NCBI GenBank assembly: GCA_963971285.1
Contig: OZ020260.1
Span: 14,480,798-14,544,797 of the forward strand
Source of the DNA: Astropecten irregularis
Taxonomy: Eukaryota > Echinodermata > Asteroidea > Paxillosida > Astropectinidae
Direction of reading: 5' to 3'
Length of the DNA stretch: 64,000 bases
Below are positions 1,900-43,100 of the stretch, piece by piece. The notes under the pieces were generated by a model. The model did no database searches. It saw only the letters and a list, made by a program, of their open reading frames with translations, and had not been told where the DNA came from. The number at the start of each line of letters is the position of its first letter. Positions within the stretch are counted from its first letter, which is position 1. The position numbers and the translations under genes were made by a program.

Positions 1900-4800
1900 T
1901 TGTGTACCAATATTGCTGGTTTAATACTTGAAAGTTGTTCGTTTTACTTGTTGACATCCGTTAGAGAAAACTAGAGAAAAGGTCACTTTTTTGCTAAAAT
2001 TGATAACTGAAATTCTTGCAATTTTTGTAAATGTTTGCACCATTTTTTTTTTAACATATCTTGAAATCAATTTCATTGCCTTCTAAGACAAATATATTGC
2101 TGTTTTTATGCTTGAAAGTTGTTCCTTTCATCCATTAGGGCACCCTGGATCAATAAGAGAAAAAGTCAATTTTGGGCCAAAATTAACAAAAACGACAAGG
2201 GGTACGTACCCCTTGCCATTTTGTTCAAATTTCACAATTTTTTTACAAGTCTTGAAATCAATTCCCCTGCATTCTAAGACACAAATATTGCAGTTTTTAT
2301 GCTTCAAAGTTGTTCCTTCCATCCATTAGGGCATCCTGGATCGATAAAAGAAAAAGTCAATTTTGGGCAAAAATTGACGAAAACGACAAGGGGTACCCCT
2401 TGCCATTTTGTTCAAATTTCACCATTTTTTGACATGTCTTGAAATCAATTCCCCCGCCTTCTAAGACACTAATATTGCTGTTTTTATGCTTGAAAGTTGT
2501 TCCTTTCATCCATTAGGGCACCCTGGATCAATAAGAGAAAAAGTCAATTTTGGGCCAAAATTTACGAAAACGACAAGGGGTACCCCTTGCCATTTTGTTC
2601 AAATTTCACCATTTTTTGACATGTCTTGAATTCAATTCCCCTGCCTTCTAAAACACCAATATTGCTGTTTTTATGCTTAAAAGTTGTTTCTTTCACGTAT
2701 TAGGGCATTCTCGATCAGTTAGAGAAAAAGTCAATTTTTGGCCAAAATTGACAAAAACGACAAGGGGTACGTACCCCTTGCCATTTTGTTGAAATTTCAC
2801 AATTTTTTGACATGTCTTGAAATCAATTCCATTGCCTCCTAAGACACCAATATTGCGGTTTTTATACTTTAAAGTTGTTTCTTTTGCGTATTAGGGCATT
2901 CTCGATCAGTTAGAGAAAAGGTCAATTTTTGGCCAAAATTGACAAAAACGACAAGGGGTACCTCTTGCCATTTTGTTCAAATTTCACCATTTTTTGACAT
3001 GTCTTGAAATCAATTCCCCCGCCTTCTAAGACACAAATATTGCTGTTTTTATGCTTGAAAGTTGTTCCTTTCATCCATTAGGGCATCCTGGATCGATAAG
3101 AGAAAAAGTCAATTTTGGGCCAAAATTGACGAAAACGACAAGGGGTACCCCTTGCCATTTTGTTGAAATTTCACCATTTTTTAACATGTCTTGAAATCAA
3201 TTCCATTGCCTCCTAAGACACCAATATTGCGGTTTTTATACTTTAAAGTTGTTTCTTTCGCGTATTAGGGCAGAGAAAAGGACAAAAACGACAAGGGGTA
3301 CCCCTTGCCATTTTGTTCAAATTTCACCATTTTTTAACATGTCTTGAAATCAATTCCATTGCCTCCTAAGACATCAATATTGCTGTTTTAATGCTTAAAA
3401 GTTGTTTCTTTCGCGTATTAGGGCATTCTCGATCAGTAAGAGAAAAAGTCAATTTTTGGCCAAAATTGACAAAAACGACAAGGGGTACCCCTTGCCATTT
3501 TGTTGAAATTTCACCATTTTTTAACATGTCTTGAAATCAATTCCATTGCCTCCTAAGTCACCAATATTGCTGTTTTTTTACTTGAAAGTTGTTTCTTTCA
3601 CGTATTAGGGCATTCTCGATCAGTTAGAGAAAAAGTCAATTTTTGGCCAAAATTGACAAAAACGACAAGGGGTACCCCTTGCCATTTTGTTGAAATTTCA
3701 CCATTTTTTGACATGTCTTGAAATCAATTCCATTGCCTCCTAAGACACCAATATTGCGGTTTTTATACTTTAAAGTTGTTTCTTTTGCGTATTAGGGCAT
3801 TCTCGATCAGTTAGAGAAAAAGTCAATTTTGGGCCAAAATTGACAAAAACGACAAGGGACCCCTTGCCATTTTGTTCAAATTTCACCATTTTTTGACATG
3901 TCTTGAAATCAATTCCCCTGCCTTCTAAAACACCAATATTGCAGTTTTAATGCTTCAAAGTTGTTCCTTTCATCCATTAGGGCATCCTGGATCGATAAGA
4001 GAAAAAGTCAATTTTGGGCCAAAATTGACAAAAACGACAAGGGGTACCCCTTGCCATTTTGTTGAAATTTCACAATTTTTTGACATGTCTTGAAATCAAT
4101 TCCATTGCCTCCTAAGACACCAATATTGCGGTTTTTATACTTTAAAGTTGTTTCTTTTGCGTATTAGGGCATTCTCGATCAGTTAGAGAAAAGGTAAATT
4201 TTTGGCCAAAATTGACAAAAACGACAAGGGGTACCCCTTGCCATTTTGTTCAAATTTCACCATTTTTTGACATGTCTTGAAATCAATTCCCCCGCCTTCT
4301 AAGACACCAATATTGCTGTTTTTATGCTTGAAAGTTGTTCCTTTCATCCATTAGGGCATCCTGGATCGATAAGAGAAAAAGTCAATTTTGGGCCAAAATT
4401 GACGAAAACGACAAGGGGTTCCCCTTGCCATTTTGTTCAAATTTCACCATTTTTTGACATGTCTTGAAATCAATTCCCCCGCCTCCTAAGACACCAATAT
4501 TGCTGTTTTTATGCTTGAAAGATGTTCCTTTCATCCATTAGGGCATCCTGGATCGATAAGAGAAAAAGTCAATTTTGGGCCAAAATTGACGAAAACGACA
4601 AGGGGTACCCCTTGCCATTTTGTTGAAATTTCACCATTTTTTAACATGTCTTGAAATCAATTCCATTGCCTCCTAAGACATCAATATTGCTGTTTTTATG
4701 CTTAAAAGTTGTTTCTTCGCGTATTAGGGCATTCTCGATCAGTAAGAGAAAAAGTCAATTTTGGGCCAAAATTGACAAAAACGACAAGGGGTACCCCTTG

Positions 4801-6840
4801 CCATTTTGTTCAAATTTCACCATTTTTTGACATGTCTTGAAATCAATTCCCCTGCCTTCTAAAACACCAATATTGCAGTTTTAATGCTTCAAAGTTGTTC
4901 CTTTCATCCATTAGGGCATCCTGGATCGATAAGAGAAAAAGTCAATTTTGGGCCAAAATTGACAAAAACGACAAGGGGTACCCCTTGCCATTTTGTTCAA
5001 ATTTCACCATTTTTTAACATGTCTTGAAATCAATTCCATTGCCTCCTAAGACATCAATATTGTTGTTTTAATGCTTAAAAGTTGTTTCTTTCGCGTATTA
5101 GGGCATTCTCGATCAGTTAGAGAAAAAGTCAATTTTTGGCCAAAATTGACAAAAACGACAAGGGGTACCCCTTGCCATTTTGTTGAAATTTCACCATTTT
5201 TTAACATGTCTTGAAATCAATTCCATTGCCTCCTTAGACACCAATATTGCTGTTTTTTTACTTGAAAGTTGTTTCTTTCACGTATTAGGGCATTCTCGAT
5301 CAGTTAGAGAAAAAGTCAATTTTTGGCCAAAATTGACAAAAACGACAAGGGGTACCCCTTGCCATTTTGTTCAAATTTCACCATTTTTTGACATGTCTTG
5401 AAATCAATTCCCCCGCCTTCTAAGACACCAATATTGCAGTTTTAATGCTTGAAAGTTGTTCCTTTCATCCATTAGGGCATCCTGGATCGATAAGAGAAAA
5501 AGTCAATTTTGGGCCAAAATTGACGAAAACGACAAGGGGTACCCCTTGCCATTTTGTTCAAATTTCACCATTGTTTGACATGTCTTGAAATCAATTCCAT
5601 TGCCTCCTAAGACACCAATATTGCGGTTTTTATACTTTAAAGTTGTTTCTTTCGCGTATTAGGGCAGAGAAAAGGACAAAAACGACAAGGGGTACCCCTT
5701 GCCATTTTGTTCAAATTTCACCATTTTTTGACATGTCTTGAAATCAATTCCCCCGCCTTTTAAGACACCAATATTGCTGTTTTTATGCTTGAAAGATGTT
5801 CCTTTCATCCATTAGGGCATCCTGGATCGATAAGAGAAAAAGTCAATTTTGGGCCAAAATTGACGAAAACGACAAGGGGTACCCCTTGCCATTTTGTTGA
5901 AATTTCACCATTTTTTAACATGTCTTGAAATCAATTCCATTGCCTCCTAAGACATCAATATTGCTGTTTTTATGCTTAAAAGTTGTTTCTTCGCGTATTA
6001 GGGCATTCTCGATCAGTAAGAGAAAAAGTCAATTTTTGGCCAAAATTGACAAAAACGACAAGGGGTACCCCTTGCCATTTTGTTCAAATTTCACCATTTT
6101 TTGACATGTCTTGAAATCAATTCCCCCGCCTTCTAAGACACCAATATTGCTGTTTTTATGCTTGAAAGTTGTTCCCTTCATCCATTAGGGCATCCTGGAT
6201 CGATAAGAGAAAAAGTCAATTTTGGGCCAAAATTGACGAAAACGACAAGGGGTACCCCTTGCCATTTTGTTCAAATTTCACAATTTTTTGACATGTCTTG
6301 AAATCAATTCCATTGCCTCCTAAGACACAAATATTGCGGTTTTTATACTTTAAAGTTGTTTCTTTCGCGTATTAGGGCATTCTCGATCAGTTAGAGAAAA
6401 GGTCAATTTTTGGCCAAAATTGACAAAAACGACAAGGGGTACGTACCCCTTGCCATTTCGTCAAATTTCACCATTTTTTGACATGTCTTGAAATCAATTC
6501 CCCCTCCTTCTAAGACACCAATATTGCTGTTTTTATGCTTGAAAGTTGTTCCTTTCATCCATTAGGGCATCCTGGATCGATAAGAGAAAAAGTCAATTTT
6601 GGGCCAAAATTGACAAAAACGACAAGGGGTACCCCTTGCCATTTTGTTCAAATTTCACCATTTTTTGACATGTCTTGAAATCAATTCCCCCGCCTTCTAA
6701 GACACCAATATTGCTGTTTTTATGCTTGAAAGTTGTTCCTTTCATCCATTAGGGCATCCTGGATCGATAAGAGAAAAAGTCAATTTTGGGCCAAAATTGA
6801 CGAAAACGACAAGGGGTACCCCTTGCTGTTTTTTCAATTT
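1900..6840. repeat. 187-bp satellite array (type I), about 26 copies
   Basis: Counting the box AAGGGGTACCCCTT gives 26 hits from 2197 to 6811, spaced almost always 186-187 bp; two gaps are 153 bp. Each unit holds two adjacent palindromes: TCAATTTTGG paired with CCAAAATTGA, and CAAGGGGTACCCCTTG. Two subtypes intermix: one with CATCCATTAGGGCATCCTGG, the other with CGTATTAGGGCATTCTCG. The first copies (about 1900-2100) are divergent. The array starts about 70 bp after the MIF-like stop codon. Short open frames in it are repeat artefacts. Confidence 0.95.
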
Positions 6841-7119
6841 TTGATGAAAAAACCAAATGTTCTGAAATGGAATTATTTCTCGTCGCAGAGATGAAATACA
6901 CCTGTTTTCCCATTATAAATGGTTTTTAATAGTAATAAACTTCATGTTCTACATTTTGTATGGTTATTATCAATAAACACGGAGATTATTCATAAAAACG
7001 GTTTCATCAAGAATATAATGATTGTCTTTGATAGTTTGTTGTTGTTTGTGCATTAAACTGCTAATAGTTCTCTATGAGAGTATCTCTTATAAACTTGAAT
7101 GATATGCTTACCTTATATT
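6841..7119 (+). other. Non-repetitive AT-rich spacer between satellite and minisatellite
   Basis: No gene is seen. It contains two AATAAA hexamers on the + strand (6934-6939 and 6972-6977), the first such hexamers after the MIF-like stop codon. They could end a very long MIF-like transcript that reads through the satellite, but this is inference. Confidence 0.5.
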
Positions 7120-7525
7120 GGGGGAACTACTCCAAACTGGGGGAACTACTGGGGGAACTACTCCAAACTGGGGGAACTACCGGGGGAACTACTCCAAACT
7201 GGGGGAACTACTGGGAGAACTACTCCAAACTGGGGGAACTACCGGGGGAACTACTGGGGGAACTACTAGGGGGCACTACTCCAAACTGGGGGAACTACCG
7301 GGGGAACTACTAGGGGAACTACTAGGGGAACTACTAGGGGAACTACCGGGGGAACTACCGGGGGAACTACTAGGGGGCACTACTCCAAACTGGGGGAACT
7401 ACCGGGGGAACTACTAGGGGAACTACTGGGGGAACTACTAGGGGAACTACTGGGGGAACTACTGGGGAACTACTAGGGGGCACTACTGGGGGAACTACTG
7501 GGGGAACTACCGGGGGAACTACTTA
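7120..7525 (+). repeat. G-rich minisatellite, 12-19 bp unit (GGGGGAACTACT with optional CCAAACT)
   Basis: About 30 tandem units of GGGGGAACTAC(T/C), some carrying the 7-bp insert CCAAACT and some reading GGGGGCACTACT. Runs of four to five G are separated by 7-nt loops, so the + strand fits the G-quadruplex pattern many times over. Open frames here (repeating GELL) are a consequence of the 12-bp unit and not evidence of a protein. Confidence 0.95.
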
Positions 7526-9062
7526 AGGGGAAAAAGTCAATTTTGGGGCAGAAATGGCAAAAACGACAAGGGGTACCCCTTGCCATTTTGTCAAGTTTCG
7601 ATGAAAAATCAAATGTTTTGAAATGGATTAAATTCTCCCCACAGATGACAAATAGACCTGTTTTTAAGCTAAGAATGTTCTAAGGCACCTATTTGGAAGA
7701 TTCAGATCACTTTGGGAAAAAGTCAATTTTGGGGCGAAAACGACAAGGGGTACCCCTTGCCGTTTTTTCAATCGGGATGATAATTCAAATGTTCTAAAAT
7801 GGATTTAATTCTCCCCGCAAATGAGAAATAGACCTGTTTTTCAGCTAAGAATGTTCTAAGCCACCTATTTGGAAAATTCGGACCACTTTGGGAAAATGTC
7901 AATTTTGGGGCAAAAATGGCAAAAATGAACAGGGGTACCCCTTGCCGTTTTTTCAATTTTGGATGATAATTCAAATGTTCTGAAATGGATTCAATTCTCC
8001 CCGCAGATAACAAATAGACCTGTTCTTAAGCATAGAATGTTCTAAGGCACCTATTTGGAAGATTCAGACCACTTTGGGAAAAAGTCAATTTTGGGGCAAA
8101 AATGGCAAAAATGACAAGGGGTACCCCTTGCCGTTTTTTCAATTTTGGATGATAATTCAAATGTTCTGAAATGGATTCAATTCTCCCCGCAGATGACAAA
8201 TAGACCTGTTTTTTAGCTAAGAACGTTCTAAGGCACCTATTTGGAAGATTCAGACCATTTGGGGAAAAAGTCAATTTTGGGGCAAAAATGGCAAAAACGA
8301 CAAGGGGTACCCCTTGCCATTTTTTCAATTTTGGATGAAAAATCAAATGTTCTGAAATGGATTCAATTCTCCCCGCAAATGAGAAATAGACCTGTTGTTC
8401 AGCTAAGAATGCTCTAAGCCACCTATTTGGAAGATTCGGACCACTTTGGGAAAATGTCAATTTTGGGGCAAAAATGGCAAAAACGACAAGGGGTACCCCT
8501 TGCCGTTTTTTCAATTTTGGATGATAATTCAAATGTTCTGAAATGGATTCAATTCTCCCCGCAGATGACAAATAGACCTGTTCTTAAGCAAAGAATGTTC
8601 TAAGGCACCTATTTGGAAGATTCAGACCACTTTGGGAAAAAGTCAATTTTGGGGCAAAAATTGCAAAAATGACAAGGGGTACCCCTTGCCGTTTTTTCAA
8701 TTTTGGATGAAAAATCAAATGTTCTGAAATGAATTCAATTCTCCCCACAGATGACAAATATACCTGTTTTTCAGCTAAGAATGTTCTAAGGCACCTATTT
8801 GGAAGATTCAGACCACTTTGGGAAAAAGTCAATTTTGGGGCAAAAATGGCAAAAATGACAAGGGTTGCCGTTTTTTCAATTTTGGATGAAAATTTAAATG
8901 TTCTGAAATGGTTTCAATTCTCCCCGCAGATGAAAAATAGACCTGTTTTTAAGCTAAGAATGTTCTAAGGCACCTATTTGGAAGATTCAGACCACTTTGG
9001 GAAAATGTAAATTTTGGGGCAAAAATGGCAAAAACGACAAGGGGTACCCCTTGCCGTTTTGG
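7526..9062. repeat. 186-bp satellite array (type II), about 9 copies
   Basis: The palindromic box recurs at about 7568, 7745, 7930, 8116, 8302, 8488, 8674, 8860 and 9039, a spacing near 186 bp. The units share roughly 60 bp with type I (AAAAAGTCAATTTTGG through the palindrome). Elsewhere they differ, carrying TTCAATTCTCCCCGCAGATG and GGCACCTATTTGGAAGATTC. Because 186 is divisible by three, the - strand stays open over three units (8026-8571, 181 codons). I regard that as incidental. Confidence 0.93.
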
Positions 9063-10583: not shown

Positions 10584-10643
10584 TTAACGAGACTCCTTAA
10601 ACTTACGTAGATTCTCAGCTGCCTTCTCTAAGGTACTGTCCTC
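10584..10643 (-). CDS. KYAT3: KYAT3 exon 14 with stop
   Basis: Encodes [19 protein letters not shown] then TAA (10586-10584). It corresponds to the last helix of the family. Confidence 0.9.
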   Translation of the reverse strand, partial: EDSTLEKAAENLRKFKESR

Positions 10644-13600
10644 CTGTAAATAGCAAGAAGATATCAAGCAGTAGTCAGTCTCAGTAAACTTAACCTCTGT
10701 GTAGTAGTGCCTGGATGGACTTAAGTCCTTGGGCCAATGTCATGGTGCTGCTAAGCACACAAATTTGCTTAGCACAAAAATGTCTTGCCCAATAAAACAA
10801 ACCACGGTTAAAAATGTCATTTGATATTCATGGTAAGTGAACAACAGCCAAAGAACAATCACAAGCGATACACAATACAACAGGGTTGTTAACCCTGTTT
10901 TTTATTAAAAGACAGAAATGTTATGCTTTGCAAACCCAACCTTTATCAGACAAGAAATTGCCCCGGGGTCGATTTCACCAAACTCATCATAACTTACTAT
11001 CAATTGTAGGACTTATGATTGCATTGCAGCCCTACGTAGGATAGGTCCTCCTACGATGGGTTATCCTTCATAACTCGAATTAAAATCGTAGGGCTTTGTG
11101 AAATCGACCCCAGAATGCCTCTGGCAGTTTGACTAGATAAAGGACTTTTATCTTTACCTTGATGAAGCAGAAACGTATGTACTTTTCTCCGATTGCTTTG
11201 TGCTCATCGCAGTAAAAGGCACTACAGGGGATCGTTGCAACACCCTTCAAAATCAAACATTCAAAGACTTTATAATAATAATAATAATAAAGGCATTCAT
11301 ATAGCATTCTTACACAAGTAGTATCACAATGCTTTACACAATTATTATCCCTGGTCATTGGGGCCATTATTAACATTCCTGAAACAATCTCAACTCCCTG
11401 GAGAGTATACAGCCCGCAGCTGCCTGCAGAGTTAACAAAGTCTAATAAAAAAACAAAGCCATCACTACCCTCACAGGTACCCATTTACACCTGGGTGAAG
11501 AGGAGCAATAATGTGACAAAGCGTCTTGCCCAAGGACACAAGCACCACTAGCCCATGGCTGATTCCTAGGATCATAGTTAAGGCCCTCCATTTCAACTAC
11601 AACGAGTATTTACTTCAGGGTATAGTTGGTAATTAGTCTAGAGTACTTTACTTGAGGTAGAAAGATGAATCTACACTTACCAGATGATTGACTATCCATC
11701 GTACCATCTTGTAGTCCCTCGCACCACCACCAGACTCTGACAAATCAACATCTGAAAACAGATAAGACATCATAAATGTGATAACATTGCCTAAGCTTGA
11801 ATCAGAATCAAGTATTACTCATGGCCGAGGGTAAGATTATTCTTCTTCGGTTATAAGCTCAATCAGATGGACAATCTTCTGCCTGTGAGAAGAGAATTAA
11901 ACATTTTCCAAGTAACTTTGAAAATGTTTGATTCTTTAAGTTAATAACTTGAAGTTAACTTCTAAACGTGACGCAATTTGATGCTGTTAGATCTACATTC
12001 CAGTTGACATCAAACTTCTACCTTTATCAGGAGATTATGTAAAGGGAATAGGGAAAAGTATTCTTCAGAAGCTTATTTCACTCAAAACAAAAAACTTTTG
12101 ATAAACTTTTGCCTGCATATTAAATTTGATCTTTTTTAATTTCATTTATGTTTTGCTTAGAGTTAGGAGGGCCTGACATGTTTCGATCCTAGCAGGATCT
12201 TTAATGAAGGCTAAATGACAAGAGGACAAGAACATGCAAGTAAAGTTACACATAAACGGACGAGAGGATCGGGACAAAGGGGTGGGGGGTTATGGAGGGT
12301 GGGGTAGGCAGTTGTGGTTAGGCAAGGAGAGGTCTGGGGTAGGCAATACAAGTAATACATTTTATATTTTGCAAGAATTTCAATATTTTTCTCTGTAACC
12401 TTGACCTGCATTAATCTTGAGACTCAATCCAGTGATGTGTATTTTAATTGTATACAAATAAAACAAATAAAACAATGCTTGTGGGTAAATATAACGGGTA
12501 CGTACCTATGTGAGAGATGTTGGCCAGCATGTAGTAGCTACCCTGTGGTATGATTGGAGACAGGCCAATCTCTCGTAGTAGCTGGGCGAGCTTGTCTCGT
12601 TTGGTTTCTAGCACCTTAGAGAGATCTGTCAAGTAGCATTCTGGCTGATCTAGCCTAGATAGCTCCAGTTCTATGGTTATGGCTAAGGCTTCCTGTGGGT
12701 TTCAATGAGAGGTTGAGGATGGTCATGGGTTATGGATAAGGCTTCCTGTGGGTTTCAATGGGAGGTTCAGGATGGTCATGGTTATGGCTAAGGCTTCCTG
12801 TGGGTTTCAATGAGAGGTTGAGGATGGTCATGGTTATGGCTAAGGCTTCCTGTGGGTTTCAATGAGAGGTTGAGGATGGTCATGGTTATGGCTAAGGCTT
12901 CCTGTGGGTTTCAATGAGAGGTTGAGGATGGTCATGGTTATGGCTAAGGCTTCCTGTGGGTTTCAATGAGAGGTTCAGGATGGTCATGGTTATGGATAAG
13001 GCTTCCTGTGGGTTTCAATGAGAGGTTGAGGATGGTCATGGTTATGGCTAAGGCTTCCTGTGGGTTTCAATGAGAGGTTCAGGATGGTCATGGTTATGGC
13101 TAAGGCTTCCTGTGGGTTTCAATGAGAGGTTCAGGATGGTCATGGTTATGGCTAAGGCTTCCTGTGGGTTTCAATGAGAGGTTCAGGATGGTCATGGTTA
13201 TGGCTAAGGCTTCCTGTGATTTTCAATGAAGGGTTGAGGATGGTCATGAATTTGAGACGGAACTGGCAAGCCGTTGAAGAGAGGAATAGATGTATATTAC
13301 AATCAATACATCTCACAGTTGACAAGTCAAAGCATCTTTTTATACAGTACATCGTTAGTGATTTAATGACATATGTATGCAAGTCTATGTCAATAATTAC
13401 AAGTCAGATACAACATGTGCACACATATGATTAGACAATTTATGTGGAGACATCAAATAAGAGCCTGTTTGTTTCAACATGCGATCGTTGATCTTGCAAA
13501 TCAACGTCCCATGCAGGATACGCTCAAATGGGATTCGGAGCAGCTTTTGCGCGCAGGATCACTGATCCCGTGCCTGAAACAAATAGGTCTTAAAACACTC

Positions 13601-16600
13601 TTAGCGAGAAGAAATGGACGTTTTGGACAGTGTGCTCTGGTCATCTTCAGGATGGCTCATTTTCACTCCTGAGGACGGCAAGAGTTTATGTCTTCATGTT
13701 TCAGCAATGATCTTCTTGCAAGTAAGCAAAGAAGCACTGTTTGCTCGTAAGTGGGGATACACAATTGGCCCCTAGTGTTATTGGTGATGTTTAATACAAA
13801 CACTCTTCAAGAGCAGAAACCAACTGACCTGTAAGGGTGTGGGGTTTGTGTAGGTGCAATTTTGACTGATCAGTCTCATATGTTGCATCAAATGATCTGG
13901 TGCGATAGTCCATCCCATCTAAAAGCAATAAAATACAACCAAAACAGATACGGAATCACAAATTAAAATTAGTTAGCTGCCAAGGCAACTGCCTCGGGGA
14001 GTCGAAACTAAATCAACAAGCGACAAAAACAAAATCAGCCAGGTTTAATAGTTGATGTACATATTTTCATTTCCTCCGTCAGTCAGGATGATCACCAATA
14101 AATCATTACCCTGGTGTCCATTGACGAAGCATATTATTCATATCATTTATACCATTGAGTAATTGGCAATTTGTTTTAGAAACCAACGATCAATCCCATC
14201 ATCAGCCAAAAATAAAATTACCTCAAATTTATGAACAAAGAAAATTAAGGTAGGACTTAAAGACTAACTGGGAGAAAAACTACATAAGCTTTCGTAGTAA
14301 CAACTACTTCATCAGATGTTAATAAAAAATTATAATTTATAAACTGCTTGGAAAAAGCCTTTGAGAAAGATCCTGCTAGGATCGAAGTGCATCAGCCCCT
14401 CCTAACTCCAAGCATGAATAAAGTTGCTAGTCTGCACATACAGAGCCCTAGACGTTTGCATGAACAGTATACTAACCTTGAACCCAGTTGCACTGAAAAT
14501 TTTTCCAGCGCTGCACACAGTGTACGTCCTATCCCACATATCAGGTAGAGTAGCTGCTCGTCATCGATCATAGGAACAAAAAAAAGACACGTTCCGTCAT
14601 CATCAGACAGAAATTAAGATAGGAGATATAAAGGAAGGCGTGAATGCAACGCTAGAATGATATATTGGAGGCATTGTCTGATCCATGCGGAAAATAAGGC
14701 TGCATCGGAGCGTGAGAAAGGAAGAAGTGACAGACTGCCGTGACGACAGAGACTGGAATTCTCTTTCCATCTGCCTTGTTGTACGTTACTGCTAATGTAG
14801 CATCATTGGCTACTGTTACAAGTACAGATAGAACATATACGCATGCGCCAATGCTTGAGTTTAAACCCTTACAGTGCCATACAATGTATGTACACTTGGC
14901 TTCCATATCCCACACGCTATGACTATACACTTGCCATAGCTTCAAAACAATATACTTCAAATTCAGCTGACTTGAATAACCTCAGATTGTACTATGTGGG
15001 TCATCAAAAAAATAATCAATTGAACAAATCAATTTAATTGAATAAACCCAATGAACTTCATAAAATGAATAAATTAGAATAAAACAGAATAAACTGGAAT
15101 GATAGAAATAAATGTCAACTTGGAAATTAATGCGAATGAAAGTATTTCCCTGAAAAAGTTTGTGTAAGAAAATTGACTGGAGTGGGATTCGAACCTGTGA
15201 CCTCTGGAATACCGTACTGGAGGTTGCAGGTTGGAATCGCACTTCAGTCAATATCTATGTTCACCTTTCAATTTCTTCAGTCAGTTTCCTTTGTGGTTTT
15301 TCGGATAAAATTTAGATACTGCTAGGACCGTAATGTCAGGCCCTCCTAACTCTCAGCATTTTGCATATTTCAGGTCATTATTTTGGTTGATGAGCAGTTT
15401 GCAGAAGTTTATTACTTATATTGAAACTTTATCTGAAATAGATAAAGAAGCAATTATGTCCTTCCAAAACTCATCAACTTTTAAGTATCTCCTGTCATAA
15501 AGCCTTTTCCCACTAGAGTGCTCATCCCCGGGGCAAACTCACCCCAGAGCCACCCCGGGGTGAAAATTTCAACCCTGGTCCCGAGCAGGGTTGAACTAAC
15601 CCCGGAGATAAGGCAATCTCGGGGGTGGCTCGGAGGTGACGGAGGGGTGAACATTTCAAATGGGAATCGTGGCTTATTTTCACCCCCGCGTCACCCCGGG
15701 GCCACCTCCGAGATTGGTCAAGTGGGAAAAGGCCAAATATTCCTCTTCCATACTTACCCATTCTGACATGCTTATGGCCTTTATACACCATGTATTCATA
15801 TACCTCATCACTGATGCACAGAGTGTCGTGCTTCTTACATAGGTCAGCTATCATCTCAAGCTCTTTCAACTTGAAAACCTGAAACAAAAATACCAAAACA
15901 ACCACTCTCAAATCACTACAGGGAAACCTGGCAGAAAGTTAATAAGAAACTGGTTTATAGGATCCTGCTCGCCGGTAAACCAGTTTATACTGTTAACACT
16001 GGTTAACTAACATTAAACTAGTTATAACTTGGAAAAATGAATGACTGATGGAGAAAAGCCTAGAGATGAAAACTAGACTGGTAACCCTGTCCAACTTTGT
16101 GATTTAACATTTAACATTTATTACTTTTCTAAAGCGCCATTTCTATAATAAATATTCAGCAATGCTGTTCAATTCAAACATAAAATTATAATAATAATTA
16201 CACAATTATACGAAATTACAGTAAAATATAAAAAAAGAACAATTAATAATACACAAAGTTACAGTGTAAAATCAATATTTTACATTTACATGGGTTTATC
16301 AACTTTGAACTAAATTGTTTGGCATGTTGAAACCTGATTGCTGGTTAAAATGATTAACTAACTGGTTAGCGCCTGAAAACCAGATTAGATTAGTTATGTT
16401 TAGATTAACTGGTAAAAAACCGAATACCCAGCAGATGAAAATAGACTGGTGAGCCTGTCCAGCCTAGTTACTGTTTCAATTACCTTGCCGAGTGGATTGT
16501 TAGGTGTGTTGATGACTATAGCTTTGGTCTTCTCGTTGAAAAGTCCGGCCAACTCCTCAGGGTCCAGCTCAAATTCATCCGCAGACTTGGGGCTGTCGCT

Positions 16601-19226
16601 TTTCTGAGGAAATGGGCAAAATTGCGGCAGAACATTAGTCACCGTGGAAACAAAACATCATTTGATAACTGAAGAAGCTTGGTTTGACAACAAAGGGAGT
16701 ATACTAACAGGTTTCAGTGCAATGAATCTGGGCGTTCCTCTGGCTAACTTCACCATCGGCTCATAGCAATCAAAGAACGGTTCAATGATAATCACCTATG
16801 GGACAAGTAGAAGAGAACTGAGGTTATACCAATTTTAAAAGCTAGGCAGAAAAAGTCAAAATAGGGACTAGGAGGCAGCCTTTTGAAAATTGATGCATAA
16901 GGGGCGGAGCAACAGTCCAAACTGGGGGGGGGGGGTTAGGGGTTGGGAGGTATGGGAGGAGTAGGAAAAGTTATATGTTCAAAACAGGAGAAAATACAAT
17001 TGTGGATTTAAGTTTTTGCCAGTTGGCTAGAAAAAAACCTCCCCTCCCCCCGGATGGGAAAGCAAGCTGGGCTGACAATTTGAAGTTTCAAAAACCTCTC
17101 ATAAGGCCTTAACGAAACCAGGCTTGAGTCTAGGCTTGGGACTTATTTCGCTACCACCATTTCACAGGCCCACAAAACAAAATGAAAAGATTGGGCCACA
17201 TGATAAAGCCAAAGAAAGGCTCCAGCTTCGCCATGTATCCCAAGCCCTTCATTTCATTTCGAGCACAACATGACGGCAGCGAAAAAAAATCCCAAGCCTA
17301 GCCTCAAGCCCAATTTTGTAAACGCCAAACCCCAAATTCTTGCTATCTATCACACAATCCTCAGCTACTAAAGAGGATGGCTACGACTAGCCCTGAGCCG
17401 AGTAAAACTGACATCACAACTTAGTCTCTCCGATGAATGTCTGCAAGCATCCAAGTTTATTTCAATTTCAACAATGTTTAATAGTCTGGTACCTCGTCTC
17501 CCGGGCTGACAATACTCATGAAGATGGTGAAGAGAGACTGGTAGGCACCGACTGTAACTAGAATCTCCTGCATAGCGTTGATTTCTCTGCTCATGTGTCG
17601 GCTATACAGCGCTGCTATGGCATTCACTAGTCTTGGATGACCCTGTCCAGGACAAATAATATACAAGGAAAACGTCAAGCACAGACCTTTATCTTGTCAG
17701 ACATTGGGGGTTTATGAAACAGAGGCTCAAGCTCAGGCTCCGTCATCGATATGCTGAAAATGGTTTTTCATTGAAGCTGAAGCTCTGTTTTCCTTTTCAA
17801 ACCAGAGAATCTACTTCTGAAGCAAAGCTTATAGTCTCTATTTTGATAAAAAAACAGTTATTTTAGAATGGATTCATGAAATAGAGCTGGAGCCTGATCC
17901 TCCGTTAAGTAAACCCCCGTAGTATGATGGCATTTGTATTTCACTCCATTTAGCCTTTGAGAAAGATCCTGCGAAGATCGAAACATCGGGCCCTCCTAAC
18001 TCTAAGCATTCTATTTTTGATAAATTGATGGAAAATGAAATATGAGTATTAAAGAAAGAGCTAAAATTGTCCTTGATACTTACTGGTCCTCTGGTATACT
18101 GGAAGATAAGAGGGTCGGAGCTGGAAGCGACATCGATGAGGGCTTTACGGACGTGATCCGGAGCTGCAAAATCAGGAAAACCCTGTACGCAAGAGAAGAC
18201 GTTTTGGTATGGTCAGTAACTATGGCAACCTCAGACCAAGAATGGATTTCACCCAGCGACGGTAAGTGTAGAGGGTTAGGACTAAATAATAAATACTAAC
18301 TTACCTGACCCAAATTGATAGCCTTGGTGTCCGCTGCCAGTTTAACAAACTCCGACCTGTAGGACAAAACCAAACCCCAAAACATCAACGAGCTATCAAC
18401 GATTTGTGACAAACTTTAGTCAGATGAACACTTAGTTAAATAAGATAAAAGTATTGAATTTTGCAGACTGAGGAACACCAGAGAGGCCGAGAAAAAATTG
18501 AAACCTTGTGGCACAGGAAAGAAGCAAAGCACAATTCTCAGTACTCACACAGACCAAAGCTGGAATCGAACCCAGGCCACATTAATGAGAGGTGAGTGCC
18601 TGGTGCACACACCACTCATGCCAATTCTGATCAAGTTATAGTTCCACACACACATTCAACCACTTAGAGCTATGGAATAAGGGGTCGATTTCATGAAGCC
18701 CTATGATCGATCGTAACTTGAGATGCGAAGGATAACCCATCGTATCCTACATAGAGCTGCAATGTATCATAAGTCCTATGATTGATAGTAAGTTACGATG
18801 AGTTTAGTGAAATTGACCAAGGATCACAAAGTTTCCACCTTAATACCCCATAACAGGTTGATACTTACCATACACTTGTCTTCTGGCCATCTAACCTCTT
18901 TGCTGGTCCATGGGATGTCATCTTGGTCTGAAAAAAAATGAGAATTTTATTCTGATTTATTCTTAGTGGGTGGCACTTAAAAAGACTAAAGTTAATTCAT
19001 ATGCAAATTCTTATTTGTTATCTAATTTTAATTCCTCATTCATTTATAAATTTTATGCTGAAATGACTAGGGTCCATACCGTTGATTTGCTTGAGTTGTG
19101 ACGACGTTGGTCCTGGGTACCGGTAGTACGGGTAAATACACAAGCCTGAATCGCTGGACGTAGGTTACTGACGTGAGAAGCTCTGGGGGACAAGTGGGTG
19201 ATTGCTGGTCGAAGACTGCACAACAT
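10584..19226 (-). CDS. KYAT3: Kynurenine aminotransferase / cysteine-S-conjugate beta-lyase (14 coding exons)
   Basis: PLP-dependent fold-type I aminotransferase that converts kynurenine to kynurenic acid. CDS in transcript order: 19226-19080, 18927-18869, 18356-18305, 18182-18084, 17642-17493, 16795-16709, 16603-16484, 15878-15758, 14553-14477, 13918-13829, 12692-12506, 11751-11681, 11244-11158, 10643-10584. All phases join, giving 468 aa. Residues 1-49 are Arg/Ser/Thr-rich with almost no acid, fitting a mitochondrial presequence. Landmarks: NLGQGFPDF (83-91), TVGAYQSLF (149-157), [10 protein letters not shown] with Asn234, SDEVY with Asp262 and Tyr265, SAGK with PLP-lysine Lys296, PECY, and YIRFCF with substrate-carboxylate Arg444. 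It resembles human KYAT3 more than KYAT1. Odd points: the usual SAGKTFSxTGWK reads [12 protein letters not shown], and exon 11 begins inside a minisatellite. Confidence 0.93.
10735..10930. repeat. 'GCTTAGCAC' MITE, in the last KYAT3 intron
   Basis: Shares TTTGATATTCATGGTAAGTG, GAACAACAGCCAAAGAACAA and CTGCTAAGCAC with the copies at 38798-38960, 42525-42762 and 54292-54525. Non-coding. Confidence 0.75.
10965..11111. repeat. GGGGTCGATTTCAC palindromic MITE, copy 1
   Basis: About 147 bp, with inverted ends GGGGTCGATTTCAC and GTGAAATCGACCCC. The interior is also inverted (CCTACG on the left, CGTAGG on the right). Homologues lie at 18681-18818, 54735-54873 and 59591-59718. Confidence 0.9.
11158..11244 (-). 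CDS. KYAT3: KYAT3 exon 13
   Basis: Encodes [16 protein letters not shown] through YIRFCFIK; Arg444 is the expected alpha-carboxylate-binding residue. The acceptor TTTGATTTTGAAG lies close to a SINE-like insertion that ends in an ATT-type tail. Confidence 0.92.
11255..11545 (-). repeat. Dispersed SINE-like repeat, copy 2
   Basis: Inverted copy of the element at 1-215. It ends in an ATA/ATT microsatellite (11272-11289), as SINE tails do, only about 30 bp upstream of the exon 13 acceptor in the transcribed direction. Confidence 0.75.
11681..11751 (-). CDS. KYAT3: KYAT3 exon 12
   Basis: Completes Asp397 and encodes [20 protein letters not shown] then NHL, matching the family (Y/F)DxxFVKWM region. 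Donor GTAAGT. Confidence 0.88.
12150..12207 (-). repeat. Dispersed 'AGGAGGGCCTGAC' repeat arm
   Basis: Reads TTAGGAGGGCCTGACATGTT and then CGATCCTAGCAGGATCTTTA; the GATCCT/AGGATC hairpin is intact. Located in the KYAT3 intron after exon 11. Confidence 0.75.
12506..12692 (-). CDS. KYAT3: KYAT3 exon 11 (acceptor lies in a minisatellite)
   Basis: Begins [10 protein letters not shown], then DQPECY, and ends [11 protein letters not shown] in phase 1. The acceptor AAACCCACAG and the first 18 or so exon bases form the last unit of an 11-copy 52-bp tandem repeat (12660-13250). Only the exon-proximal acceptor keeps the reading frame open. Confidence 0.92.
12660..13250 (-). repeat. 52-bp minisatellite made of a 3' splice site plus exon start, 11 copies
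   Basis: GGTTATGG(C/A)TAAGG recurs at 12675, 12728, 12780, 12832, 12884, 12936, 12988, 13040, 13092, 13144 and 13196: a period of 52, with one interval of 53. On the coding strand each unit contains TTGAAACCCACAG and then GAAGCCTTAGCCATAACCAT, that is, the exon 11 acceptor plus its first codons. The intron-side copy is the most degenerate. Confidence 0.96.
13829..13918 (-). CDS. KYAT3: KYAT3 exon 10
   Basis: 30 codons, [14 protein letters not shown] through TNPTPLQ, matching the family GWxxGPxHLIKHL and ATPLQ segments. The donor is GTCAGT. Confidence 0.92.
14354..14412 (+). repeat. Dispersed 'GCCTTTGAGAAAGATCCTGC' repeat arm
   Basis: Reads GCCTTTGAGAAAGATCCTGC then TAGGATCGAA, followed by CCCTCCTAACTCCAAGCAT. 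A typical arm of the family, in the intron between KYAT3 exons 9 and 8. Confidence 0.8.
14477..14553 (-). CDS. KYAT3: KYAT3 exon 9 (PLP lysine)
   Basis: Encodes [13 protein letters not shown] then [12 protein letters not shown]; Lys296 forms the Schiff base. Phase and homology fix the acceptor at GACGAGCAG, although its pyrimidine tract is poor. The donor is GTTAGT. Confidence 0.9.
15174..15250 (-). repeat. tRNA-like SINE fragment
   Basis: On the - strand a perfect B box, GGTTCGAATCC, follows an anticodon-arm-like stretch. No A box and no complete cloverleaf is seen, so this is a tRNA-derived repeat and not a tRNA gene. Confidence 0.55.
15315..15425 (+). repeat. Dispersed 'CAGGCCCTCCTAACTC' repeat, degenerate
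   Basis: Contains GTCAGGCCCTCCTAACTCTC, then TTTCAGGTCATTATTTTGGT and GAGCAGTTTGCAGAAGTTTA. It shows the longer body that follows the hairpin in complete copies. Confidence 0.7.
15499..15734. repeat. GC-rich foldback element
   Basis: Inverted ends AAAGCCTTTTCCCACT and AGTGGGAAAAGGCC. The interior is rich in CCCCGGGG-type inverted segments and far more GC-rich than its surroundings. It lies just downstream of KYAT3 exon 8, inside the intron. Confidence 0.75.
15758..15878 (-). CDS. KYAT3: KYAT3 exon 8
   Basis: Begins [20 protein letters not shown] and contains [12 protein letters not shown], with the Asp262 and Tyr265 PLP contacts. Ends in phase 1. Confidence 0.94.
16484..16603 (-). CDS. KYAT3: KYAT3 exon 7
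   Basis: 40 codons ending in [13 protein letters not shown]; Asn234 should bind the PLP 3'-oxygen. The acceptor is CATTTCCTCAG and the donor GTAATT. Confidence 0.94.
16709..16795 (-). CDS. KYAT3: KYAT3 exon 6
   Basis: Encodes [20 protein letters not shown] and on to FIALKP. The [10 protein letters not shown] signature is typical of KYAT1 and KYAT3. The donor is GTTAGT, slightly non-consensus. Confidence 0.93.
17493..17642 (-). CDS. KYAT3: KYAT3 exon 5
   Basis: 50 codons beginning [15 protein letters not shown] and ending IVSPGDE. It includes [12 protein letters not shown], whose Tyr153 corresponds to the family's cofactor-stacking aromatic residue. Confidence 0.93.
17706..17918. repeat. 'GCTCCGGCTC' foldback repeat, copy 1
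   Basis: Shares GCTGAAGCTCTGTTTTC, AACCAGAGAATCTACTTC and TATTTTAGAATGGATTCA with 41550-41813 and 57951-58185. The left arm (GAGGCTCAAGCTC) pairs with the right arm (GAGCTGGAGCCT). Confidence 0.75.
17950..18012 (+). repeat. Dispersed 'GCCTTTGAGAAAGATCCTGC' repeat arm
   Basis: GCCTTTGAGAAAGATCCTGC then GAAGATCGAAACATC and GGCCCTCCTAACTCTAAGCA. In the intron after KYAT3 exon 4. Confidence 0.8.
18084..18182 (-). CDS. KYAT3: KYAT3 exon 4
   Basis: Encodes [20 protein letters not shown] and continues to IFQYTRGP, matching the family N-terminal lobe. 33 codons, phase 0 at both ends, donor GTAAGT. Confidence 0.92.
18305..18356 (-). CDS. KYAT3: KYAT3 exon 3
   Basis: Encodes [18 protein letters not shown]. 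The NLGQ motif leads into the substrate-binding GFPDF of exon 4. The acceptor is TTGTCCTACAG and the donor GTAAGT. Confidence 0.92.
18540..18625 (-). repeat. tRNA-derived SINE fragment
   Basis: The - strand carries GGGTTCGATTCC (B box), preceded by GGCATGAGTGGTGTG (A-box-like). It is followed by an unrelated 3' body. Located in the KYAT3 intron between exons 2 and 3. Confidence 0.55.
18681..18818. repeat. GGGGTCGATTTCA palindromic MITE, copy 2
   Basis: Same family as 10965-11111. It begins GGGGTCGATTTCATGAAGCC and ends GTGAAATTGACC. In the intron between KYAT3 exons 2 and 3. Confidence 0.88.
18869..18927 (-). CDS. KYAT3: KYAT3 exon 2
   Basis: Flanked by a TTTTTTTTCAG acceptor and a GTAAGT donor. 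It encodes [19 protein letters not shown] plus two bases of Trp69. The in-frame Met52 at the start of the conserved domain could serve as a cytosolic start. Confidence 0.88.
19080..19226 (-). CDS. KYAT3: KYAT3 exon 1 (mitochondrial presequence)
   Basis: ATG at 19226-19224; donor GTATGG follows 19080. It encodes 49 residues ([17 protein letters not shown]...) with eight arginines and no glutamate, as in matrix-targeting peptides. A TTTTTCCCATAG acceptor just upstream of the ATG suggests that a separate non-coding first exon precedes it. Phase 0. Confidence 0.82.
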
Positions 19227-25114: not shown

Positions 25115-28100
25115 CTGTTTTTACAAACACACAAAAAGAAGGCCAAAATTGTAAAAGCTCAGCACATTTCACGATGAATATTCAAAAATGAAGCAATGCA
25201 TCAAATATTATCATTATTATTACATTGTAGTATGATACTGGATTCAAATTAACCTGCTGACCAAAGCTAGCTTGGTGGTCTAGTGGTATGACATCTGCAC
25301 TAGTAAGCAGGAGGGCATGGGTTCCAATCCCACCTGAATCAGTGAGTAATTTTTTTTCAAGTGAACTCAATACACCGAGTATGCAGTGTCTTGTGTAAGG
25401 CAAGCCCAATTTGCATAATTCATGAGCCATTATGCAGCCGCAGGTTGACTTATACAAAAATAAATTGAGTTTTGTGAAAATGACATGCAGCTACATACAG
25501 CACATCACCCATATTACACTCAACAGAACCATTATTCATTCACAGGGCCTACATCAGAATGGTTAAAATATGTACAATTTCTCCAGACAAATGAATCTGA
25601 AAGAATATTTGAATCATATCATTTACATGTATCAGACGTGTGAGTCGCCCATAAAAATCGTAATTATGTACGATACTTGAATTCAAAATATGTACATGTA
25701 TAGTGAGAATTTGTAGCCTCTTTCTTAGGATAAATTTACTTCAGTTTATTTCTGTAACAACCATATCAAATTCAATTTAATGCATGGCTGCCTTCAATTT
25801 TGCTTATCAAATTGAAATTTTAAATGACATAATTTCAAATTGTCTGCATTAGTTATTTACAATCACCTGCACCAACCAGCATAATGACAGTGTGTTTCCT
25901 ACCCGTATTAAAACAAACAGCTTCATATTTTTCCAATTAAAAACCTTATAATTGCAAATTTATTAATTACCATTTCATTTTATGGTGTAGGTACTTCAAA
26001 TGCACGCATCGCCTTTCCAGATTTGATTGGAATATTTGAAAAAAACTTATGTATGGGTTAGGGTTGTATGCATTACGAATCAACTTTAGGGATTTGGCCG
26101 CTTCGTGGCAAAAACCAACAAGTAAACAAAATAATAAAAAACTCAGGGCTGTGATTGTACTGGCACAAAGAATTCTGAAAACATGGTAAAAAATCCTGAA
26201 AATCACATATCTCCTATACTTTTGTGCTGGAAAAGTGACAAAAAAATTCCTGAAATCAGGGTTCTTCCCGACAAATCACGCCCCTGCTAACTGGGAATAA
26301 TTCTGGAAAAATAAAATCATACGTTTAAAGGGCATGTACAATATTGGTGAAGGTGACAGAGCAGCTGCATGCTGCTCATAATTTGATTTGTCATGGAATA
26401 AAAACAAACCTGTGAAATCTTCAGCTCAATTGATCATTGGAAACAGTAGAAAACAACGAAAAACCGTTGTTTTGTTACACAAAATTGTGTGGGAATAGCT
26501 GTCTCATTTTTTATCTTGCCAAGATAAAAAATGTTTTGGTGTTTTGTTTTACTCTTTTCAGGATAAATACAGCATTTCAGGCAGAATAATTTCCATAGTA
26601 TGTCTCAACCATTACCGTCTTTAAATTATACCATGTAAGTTATTCGTAAATCTGTGAAGATTCAGTTTTGGTTTGTTACCAATATTGTATGCCCTTTAAT
26701 AAGCAGTTAAAAAAACTGTTTCTGTGAAACATAAACACACTTATACAACCAAATGTATCTCCATTTAGTTGTTATTCAATCGAGATTAATCCCTCCTTTG
26801 TTTTTTTTGGAAGAGAAAGAGGATTTATTTTGAACTGTGCTAATGACGCCTTGACTGAATGCCATGCTTTACAAATACATTCATACAAAATCAATCCAAA
26901 GTTACAAATCCGTTCAAATGGGAGCAATTCATCCAAAATATTTGATTCCGTTTTATAGTGATTTTACCCTCCATTAGGCACAATTTTCTATTAAGGGGGA
27001 GGGGGGCGGTTTCAGAAACAAGAAATCTTTAAAAGCCCACTCAATCATTTCCATTTCTTCCAGTGTAATAATCTTTGATTCATTTCCTTTGCCCGTATTG
27101 AATTTCCTCAAGGAACCAGATCGGCGGAAATGAAACATAAATTGGGCGGTGAGAAACAACAACCATTGGAGCAATAGGAGTCTTGTTTCTGGGTAAATAT
27201 CTTCAAGGGAAGATGGTCATAATTGATTGCTGGGGTTTGGGAAGTCATTTATCTATTTTTTTTTTTTTTTTTTTGCATATGAAGGCCTCAGATGCAAAAT
27301 GAATATTCACGAAGCATTGATAGTGTCACACCAATTTTGCATATATGCAAATCTGGATGCAAATATTTGCCAATAAGAATGACCTCATCTAGCATCTCAT
27401 TACCATAGGAAGAAAATTAAATTGCAAATTGATTGGTTGTTTTTATGTAAATGAGTTATCTTACCTGGCATCTCATCAGCATATCAAAGAAGTCGTCATC
27501 GGGTACTCCCTGGCCGCCCTTGTGAAGGAGCTGGCCTAGAACGCCCTCGTTAGTCGTCTTGAGGCCGGGGAGGTTACAAATGCTGGAACGTTGCTCGTTC
27601 AGACGGCTTCTCTGGAAACTGGCAATCTGGTTCATAAGCTCCTCTTTCATGGGATAATCTGGATTAAAGGAGATAAAGCAAAGAGATTAGGAGGAGTTAG
27701 GCCTATCAGATGAAAGTCAATCTGTGTTTCTGCCTGGTCCAACTGCCTTGCCGAAGACTTATCTAAACCCCTGTCCAAAACAAGTCCAGTGTGGACAGGG
27801 CTTAACTGTCATCAGCAGCTGATTTCATATGAAGAAATCGAATTCAACAGTGACTTCATCGACGCAACATGGAGGCAACAAACCGATCAGAACTACATGT
27901 AGAGCAACAGCATCTTACAGAGACATGTAGGGAAACAGCTCCTCACAGTCTCTCACTGATGCACTGAACAAACTATCCCTGTGCTGCAATGCTCATAGAG
28001 AGTCCTATAGCATAATGTCCAACACACACACACCTACATACACACCTAGTTCTGAAGCTCCATAATGGCAAGCAGTACAGCTGATGTAAATCAAATCTCA

Positions 28101-40100: not shown

Positions 40101-43100
40101 GATCAAAACTGTTTTCGGTCTTTGTTTTACTACCGGATAAATACAGCATTTCAGGCAGAAATATTTTAACGGTATGTTTCTACCAGCACCATCTTCATAC
40201 ACTAAAAGTTATAAGTAAATCTGTGAAGATTTCTATTTAAGTATGTTACCAATCCTGTACTGTACCTTTAACAGACTTTGTGACATACTGCCTAGAGGCA
40301 AGGGCATTGATTTATAGGGGGCGGAGGGAAAGGGGCAAGGAGGGGGGTGGTGTTTGGAAAGGTAAGCATACCTTATCTGGTGTCATGGCAACCAGTTGCA
40401 TTCGCTCCATGCTTTGCCGGCGTTGCCTGTTGAGTTCTAGCAAGAAAAAAAGAGAAGATACACTATTGAATAGAATACAACTACTGCAGGTTAAGCAGAG
40501 TGATAGTAAAGTGATACATGGAAATAGAACATGCCATGAACCATCTAGGAGGTCTGGCTTGACTATAGCACTGAGGGAGGCTAGTTTTACTAGCACTGCA
40601 GAAGCAATGTTAAGTGTTTTCAAACTATTTCATGGACAAAAAAGGGGCTAGTTTTAATGTATGACTAAAGGAGGCTAGTTTTACTATACTATTTGAAGCA
40701 GGAGTTATAGCTAATGTGACTATTAAGGGGTGATAATTGTAATTTTTTACACAAAGGGACTAGTTTGTTGTGCCAATAAATCATATAAGAGCAGTTTCAT
40801 TACCTTTTTCCTTCAGAGTCTTTTTGTTAGCGTTCTGTAGGAGGCCATCTTGACTAGATACAAGAGAGAGAGAAATGCAAAACAATATTTAATTGAAACT
40901 GCACAGAATATCCTGATTTTAATACATAACGAGCTACTCAATGTAGCATACTGCTTGTGAGTCATGCTAAGATGTGGGTTTTTGCTTAGCAGGGAATATG
41001 TGAGGCTTATCCAGTTTTGCTAAGCAAATTAAGTTCATAAGTTAATATATTTAATGTATAGTCAACAAGCACATTTATGCTTTAATAGCACCACCATCAA
41101 ATTTGACCTTAGTTATTGCAAGGAGATTTGTTTTCTTCACTGCATCATTGATACAGGCACACTGTCACCTTGACAATAAATATGTCATTAATACAACGGA
41201 AACAATAAACCATTACCGCCGGCCGACAATATTTCAAAACTCATTTCTGAACCTAATTTATAACTGGAGCTCTTATTACGACCACGGTGACAGCTATTTA
41301 CATTTCATTATAAATGTTCAGTTCAGCAATTAGTGTAGCTATCCTGAAAGGTTTTCATCATCTCTGGCTGGCATGCAACAGGGAGGGTAAACAGTTGATT
41401 GCAGGGACGTCACGACGTGAGCAAACCAAGCTGAATTATGAGGACAGAGTCGGGCAGGTCGGTGCATGTTGGCCGTCTAATCCCAGACGGCCTGGCTAGT
41501 GATTATAACACAGTGGAGAGTTACCTACATGGGTATCTTATGACCATTAGGGGCCTTTTCCAAACCTCGGCTCTGGCTTCGTCTCTGTCATCCATATGTT
41601 GAAAATAATAGGTTGTGGTTTTTCATTGAAGCTGAAGCTAATTTCTTTTTTGACCAGAGAATCTACTTTCGAACCGCAGCCAAAAGCCTCTATTTTGATA
41701 CCCGTTATTTTAGTATGGATTCACGGAATGGAGCCCGAGCCCAAGCCCGAGCCCAAGCCCGAGCCCGAGCCCGAGCCGGAGCTGGAGCCTGAGCTGAGGT
41801 TTGGCAAAGCCCCAAGGAGTAATACCTTACAGAATCCCTCATATTGAGCCGTGTTAGCCCTGGGGTCATAGGATAGTGTCTTCTTTTCATACCTGCAAGG
41901 GTCTTTGTCCAGTCCCAGGACTGTCCGCAAGTCAGCCAGGTTCATTTGGGCCGTTAGCTCACCGGTTTTATCTCCAACCTACAGCCAATGTGAACAACAC
42001 AAAAACATGAATACAAAATGGGAAAAAAAAGGTACAAAAGAAGCGGAAATGAAATAAGCTCTCTTTTGAATAAAAATATAAAAGAAGAAAAGGGAAGAAA
42101 AAGAATTCAGTGCCCAGGGGGAAATTGTAGTAATTTTCCAAAGAAGGTAAAAAAAGACCTGATTTATTATTCTGTTTCTGAGGGATTTGTAATGAAATGA
42201 TGGGAAGGATCCGGTTACAAGGATTTAGATGACGGCGCTTGGTGCATAATGAAGACTGATCCTACTGAATACAGGATGGGGGTTTGTACCAGCATCGTAG
42301 GATGTCTTCTGGAGGTGGGTTTGGTCAAGCAATGTTCCCTGATTTGATGGTAATTATAAATTGATTTCTCCAGACGATTTCACAAAACACTGAAGATCAA
42401 TCTTCACTTTGTGTTGTGAATATTACCATAGTGATTTGTGTTGTGACATCATTCTTTGCTTAGCAATTACGACTGATTCATGATTAATATTAGAGCTTGG
42501 TGAAATCGTCTACTGCAAATTGCCAATTTCACAGCCCTGCTTAGCACACAAATTTGCTAACCATTAAATTTCTGTCTTAATAAAAACAGGATTAACAAAC
42601 AAATTTCCATGTGTTGTGTATCACTTGTGATTGTTCTTTGGCTGTTGTTTGCTGACCATGATTATCAAATGACATTTCTAATAATGGTTTGTTTTATTGA
42701 GTCTGATATTTTGTGCTAAGCATTTTTTTGTGTGCTTAACAGGTCCATGAAATTGGCCCCAGTACATTCAAATGACTACAATATTTTCAATAATATTATT
42801 TTTCTCTAGCCTATGAGGAAGAGAATATCCTCTCTCCTCAGCTTTTCTGTTTGTTCATTTCCAGCAGACAAACAGCTTACAACATCCATTTTTTTTTATT
42901 AATTGGAAAAAAAAGGAAACAGAAACGAAAGCTTCATTTTAAGCAACAGAAGGGACGAATAATAAAAACAAAACTCCAGGCAATGGTGTTTGTTCAAGCT
43001 ACCTTCACTGCATGTTATTGACATTCCATTCCGCTCTGTGTTTTTGTAACAAATTCTTTCCCACAAGCAGCCAAAAACAATATGTAGGTTTTTTTCCTTT

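Follow-up and report, generated by a model that had tools for sequence, protein, structure and literature searches.

We describe a minisatellite of eleven tandem units that lies across a 3' splice site of a KYAT3-like gene in Astropecten irregularis, on the minus strand of a 64,000-nucleotide stretch (assembly GCA_963971285.1, contig OZ020260.1, positions 14,480,798 to 14,544,797) that is called the window here and supplies all positions below. Every unit combines the end of intron 10, an AG and the first bases of exon 11, so that the splice signal is repeated across all eleven, as in the exon-intron boundary repeats for which the name 'mirages' was reportedly coined on amphioxus Adh3. Repeat instability probably produced the array as a by-product that is tolerated, and we consider it likely that it is a recently homogenised array of the mirage type, without dedicated function, in which the exon-proximal acceptor is used almost always. 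The features concerned, all on the minus strand, are the following.

12673..13248, minus strand: minisatellite array of 11 units (52 bp, one of 53) that occupies the 3' end of intron 10 and extends 20 bases into exon 11, placed by Tandem Repeats Finder (TRF) and by acceptor positions.
12693..13213, minus strand: ten extra copies of the exon start, any one of which, if used, would lead to a premature stop.
12728..12780, minus strand: 53-bp unit adjoining the unit of the true exon, with an extra C, a T-to-C change in the pyrimidine tract and TTATCC for TTAGCC.
13197..13248, minus strand: 5'-edge unit, 4/52 from the majority and the most diverged by substitution.
10584..19226, minus strand: KYAT3-like gene model of 14 coding exons and 469 codons including the stop, a hand-built prediction.
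13829..13918, minus strand: KYAT3-like exon 10, ending ...TPLQ in phase 0, with donor CAG/GTCAGT.
12693..13828, minus strand: intron 10, measuring 1136 nt up to the proximal acceptor and 615 nt up to the 5'-most copy.
12506..12692, minus strand: KYAT3-like exon 11 of 187 nt, with the true acceptor at 12692/12693; bases 1 to 20 of the exon form the exonic part of the last unit.

TRF reported a period of 52, 11.1 copies, 96% matches and a score of 1059 between 12673 and 13248, which bears out the repeat that a first-pass annotation had placed at 12660-13250 while correcting its bounds. The units run head to tail, and all eleven carry the acceptor as CACAG/GAAGCC, with the first exonic base at 13213, 13161, 13109, 13057, 13005, 12953, 12901, 12849, 12797, 12745 and 12692. 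The last of these is the true start of exon 11, as the annotation had it and as the gene model requires (exon 10 ending in TPLQ, exon 11 beginning with EALA, phase 0), and the ten extra copies of the acceptor and first codons that had been claimed upstream of it are all present. Nine of the ten spacings are 52 bp and the exon-adjacent one is 53 (one extra C); the earlier description of eleven 52-bp units is thus right in number and one base short in one spacing. Each unit reads CATGACC...CACAG/GAAGCCTTAGCCATAAC, that is, 35 intronic bases with the acceptor followed by the first exonic bases, and inspection by eye suggests CATGACC, some 30 nt upstream of the AG, as a branch-point candidate in each unit. 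A 34-base string previously assigned to every unit is exact in 8 of the 11; the exceptions are the 5'-most unit, where AAAATC replaces AAACCC, and the units that start at 13040 and 12780, where TTATCC replaces TTAGCC. A search of both strands found CACAG/GAAGCC nowhere else in the window, and no ungapped copy of the unit at up to 22/52 mismatches was found outside the array on either strand of the whole window. The 576 bases of the array contain no GT, and it therefore offers no standard donor and cannot supply an internal exon that would end in one. Copy number is that of one assembled sequence, taken at face value.

All 13 introns of the predicted gene are GT-AG. Residues 51-467 of the 468-residue predicted product match solved kynurenine aminotransferases, with scores of 495 bits for 1yiy (kynurenine aminotransferase), 474 for 2zjg (transaminase 3) and 432 for 3fvs (transaminase 1), and the first 50 residues had no homologue match in this solved-structure comparison. 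The name KYAT3-like reflects these match scores rather than a tree, and orthology to KYAT3 is put forward on that basis. Against NCBIfam, the best 25 of 72 families were all of aminotransferase type, each below its cut-off, and so contribute nothing beyond the structure matches. The seven codons covered by the repeat were not clearly altered: in a comparison of 140 aligned columns, 61 of them invariant in the three homologues, one of the three covered invariant columns differs (F to I, codon 7), as against 18 of 61 overall, and the idea that the array had overwritten exon codons was rejected on these counts.

The consequences of using an upstream copy can be read from the frame. All ten decoys would create premature stops, as had been proposed; these come after 20 to 39 codons, and reading from the next acceptor upstream ends at a TAG inside the real exon. 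The second upstream acceptor ends at TGA, the third and eighth at TAA, and the remaining six (fourth to seventh, ninth and tenth) at a TAG within the repeat. Nonsense-mediated decay (NMD) usually acts on stops more than 50-55 nt before an exon junction; even the decoy stop closest to the exon 11/12 junction is 177 nt upstream of it, so that NMD of all ten products would be expected under this rule. However, 91% of 2000 shuffled 52-bp units of the same composition also gave ten stops out of ten, and shuffled units of lengths divisible by three (51 and 54) did so in 56-57% of cases. Because most shuffled units behave in this way, the premature stops are not evidence of design. The RNA of the array likewise showed no structure beyond that of shuffled sequences (611-nt fold, z of +1.35, 19 of 20 shuffles equally or more stable), and an RNA hairpin array was rejected as a candidate.

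Comparison of the units with one another points to recent turnover. Differences from the majority, taken 5' to 3' across the eleven units, are 4, 1, 1, 1, 1, 1, 0, 0, 0, 3 and 0, with the 1-bp insertion in the penultimate unit and none in the undiverged last one. Two groups of four units are identical: the unit that enters the true exon matches those starting at 12936, 12884 and 12832 over all 52 bp, and those starting at 13196, 13144, 13092 and 12988 match one another. The identity of the true-exon unit to three others indicates that recent turnover either included the working splice site or started from it. Both edges of the array carry CAT, in AAATT/CATGACC on the intron side and ATAAC/CATAGAA on the exon side, which fits a duplication at microhomology, as weak evidence.

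These observations suggest the following history. About 52 bp across the boundary of intron 10 and exon 11 would have been duplicated in tandem, perhaps at the edge CAT, and unequal exchange or slippage would next have amplified the duplicated unit and kept its copies alike, leaving the sequence upstream of the last copy as intron. The spliceosome would still join exon 10 to the exon-proximal acceptor by exon definition, which yields the shortest exon and would pick the last copy as the only one with the body of the exon and the exon's 5' splice site close by. The other ten acceptors would be passive and seldom used, with their products removed by NMD, and the array would be tolerated with no dedicated function. 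It is the recent turnover that includes the working copy, the chance-level stops, the unremarkable codons, the shuffle-like RNA, the absent GT and the undisturbed splicing reported for amphioxus mirages (PMC3087553, PMC3902484) that lead us to regard the array as tolerated.

Several observations weigh against this reading. Scored with a crude matrix built from the 12 other acceptors of the KYAT3-like gene, the true acceptor is weak (-1.06), and only two of those 12 are lower; on the same crude matrix eight of the ten decoys score exactly as it does (13213 and 12745 score lower), and ten AGs of intron 10 outside the array outscore it (57 AGs scored, the true one included). As decoys tie with the true site and other AGs exceed it, local site sequence does not explain the correct choice, and acceptor strength was rejected as the discriminator. 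The edge pattern is also unclean, since the unit starting at 12780, next to last, differs at 3/52 positions and carries the extra C, contrary to a simple rule of edge divergence. Only three bases are common to the two edges, which makes them weak evidence for the duplication mechanism, and the use of the proximal acceptor is itself something that we infer.

What then decides the choice of acceptor must lie beyond the local site. The true site has 11 pyrimidines of 17 at -20 to -4, against 7 to 14 in the 12 other acceptors, and 4 T of 17 against 4 to 13; with T so low among the pyrimidines, the tract is weak and C-rich. The decoys at 12901, 12849 and 12797 equal the true site at every base from -36 to +20, from which it follows that the choice rests beyond +20, upstream of -36, or on position. 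On one reading the choice is made in this way and leakage into the decoys may rise with copy number, so that KYAT3 output would become a function of array length; we regard this as rather improbable.

A related possibility, raised in the first-pass annotation, is that the array could be a length-dependent tuner of splicing or of NMD. The decoys would then capture some splicing, NMD would take up the products, and KYAT3 output would be set by the number of copies. The stops from all ten decoys and the three decoys identical to the true site speak for it, as does a human case: the variable number tandem repeat (VNTR) in intron 18 of ABCA7 starts with a splice donor, and in people longer alleles go with lower expression and strongly more exon 19 skipping (PMC5954066). 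Like the KYAT3-like array, it is a minisatellite that includes a splice site, and its 25-bp unit is not a multiple of three, so that a retained unit shifts the frame; it differs in repeating a donor rather than an acceptor, and its one-unit retention isoform, at about 2%, is described as independent of VNTR length (PMC5954066). In amphioxus, where mirage minisatellites are described in Adh3, the globins BflGb6 and BflGb9, TnC and PGBD5 (PMC3087553, PMC3902484), many units carry signals able to act as cryptic sites (PMC3087553), but the mirages reportedly do not interfere with splicing (PMC3087553, PMC3902484). Adh3 data and reverse-transcription PCR (RT-PCR) of globins suggest that regular splicing is undisturbed (PMC3087553), and the Adh and TnC mirages are reported to yield no aberrant mRNAs (PMC3902484). 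The anatomy with its decoys stands; given also that the stops are expected from unit length and that the RNA folds as shuffles do, the step to a tuner is unsupported, and we think a tuner unlikely.

An assembly error that inflated or collapsed the array, leaving its presence right and its copy number wrong, seems to us decidedly unlikely. Copies of the lancelet PGBD5 mirages do vary by assembly version (2 vs 7, 3 vs 6; PMC3902484), and aberrant assembly was noted for an amphioxus globin gene (PMC3087553). The units of the KYAT3-like array, however, vary in an ordered way (TTATCC in two, a mixture of CTG and CTC, a diverged edge unit, a 1-bp insertion), which argues against pure assembly stutter.

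That the array serves as starting material for a new intron or a shifted exon start, as the amphioxus globin paper proposed for mirages (PMC3087553), and as is suggested by a potato gene that gained an intron through tandem duplication across an acceptor (PMC4974935) and by human exon-intron boundary repeats that can form new introns (PMC2812944), is very unlikely, because without a GT no unit can end an exon inside the array (a rare GC donor aside) and each upstream start runs into a stop.

Arrays of this kind were not repeated at the other splice sites of the gene. None of the 25 others had a local copy at 6/30 mismatches or fewer (ungapped, same strand, within 2 kb), and on either strand the best local copy had at least 11/30 mismatches, as at random places in the gene.

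The window also holds other repeats. Just downstream of the KYAT3-like gene, at 2047-6841 and 7528-9060, are long satellite arrays whose unit is about 187 bp; TRF counts 6 to 13 copies in each block and reads some as 377/378-bp dimers, and the arrays contain palindromic stretches of the GACAAGGGGTACCCCTTG type. Between two blocks of this satellite, at 7119-7532, lies a G-rich array built from ACTGGGGGAACT-like units of 12 bp, which shows higher-order periods of 62 and 104 bp. A dispersed motif resembling GAGTTAGGAGGG...AGCAGGATCT was seen by eye in KYAT3 introns at about 18000, 15350, 14410 and 12190, once inverted, and is perhaps a mobile-element fragment. A weak Rfam transfer RNA (tRNA) match at 25269-25341 on the plus strand (30.9 bits, with the gathering score at 29; E 0.018) is perhaps a tRNA-derived short interspersed nuclear element, and a GAGCCC hexamer array lies at 41731-41794 (10.7 copies, 86% matches). 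No Pfam match was found in the 10 neighbouring stop-free fragments examined out of 362 of at least 50 aa, a count that excludes fragments whose start lies in the satellite stretch or in the minus-strand KYAT3 stretch.

Boundary-spanning repeats are already known in amphioxus, human and potato genes, and the KYAT3-like array is of this known kind. Its closest likeness is to the BflGb6 mirage, which has the same geometry, an intron 3' end with the 5' part of an exon, and which occurs with 6 and 3 repeat units in two haplotypes (PMC3087553). The diverged 5'-edge unit may recall the amphioxus globin mirage, whose edges are described as diverged (PMC3087553), but the exon side departs from that pattern, with an undiverged last unit beside a changed one. 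Unit sizes differ, at 52-53 bp in eleven copies for the KYAT3-like array as opposed to 10-72 bp in Adh3 and 150-160 bp in BflGb6 (PMC3087553), as do the host genes, and the globin mirages had RT-PCR where the present array was read from sequence. One of the mirage arrays in the PGBD5 paper contains a predicted exon, described as unconfirmed by RNA (PMC3902484). In human segmental duplications, internal tandem repeats at exon-intron boundaries account for 27 intron modifications (PMC2812944); these too are minisatellites that span a splice boundary and are able to change introns, but they concern recently duplicated primate genes and have transcript support, whereas the KYAT3-like array lies in a conserved metabolic gene and is known from its sequence. 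The potato RdRp duplication likewise spans an intron-exon boundary at the acceptor and made a new intron (PMC4974935), while none can be read in the KYAT3-like array.

The KYAT3-like case contributes an array of eleven 3' splice-site copies in a conserved metabolic gene and does not amount to a new type of system. Such arrays can confuse gene predictors, and it has been proposed that they seed intron gain. They are also natural tests of acceptor choice, in which the local sequence is constant and the position varies.
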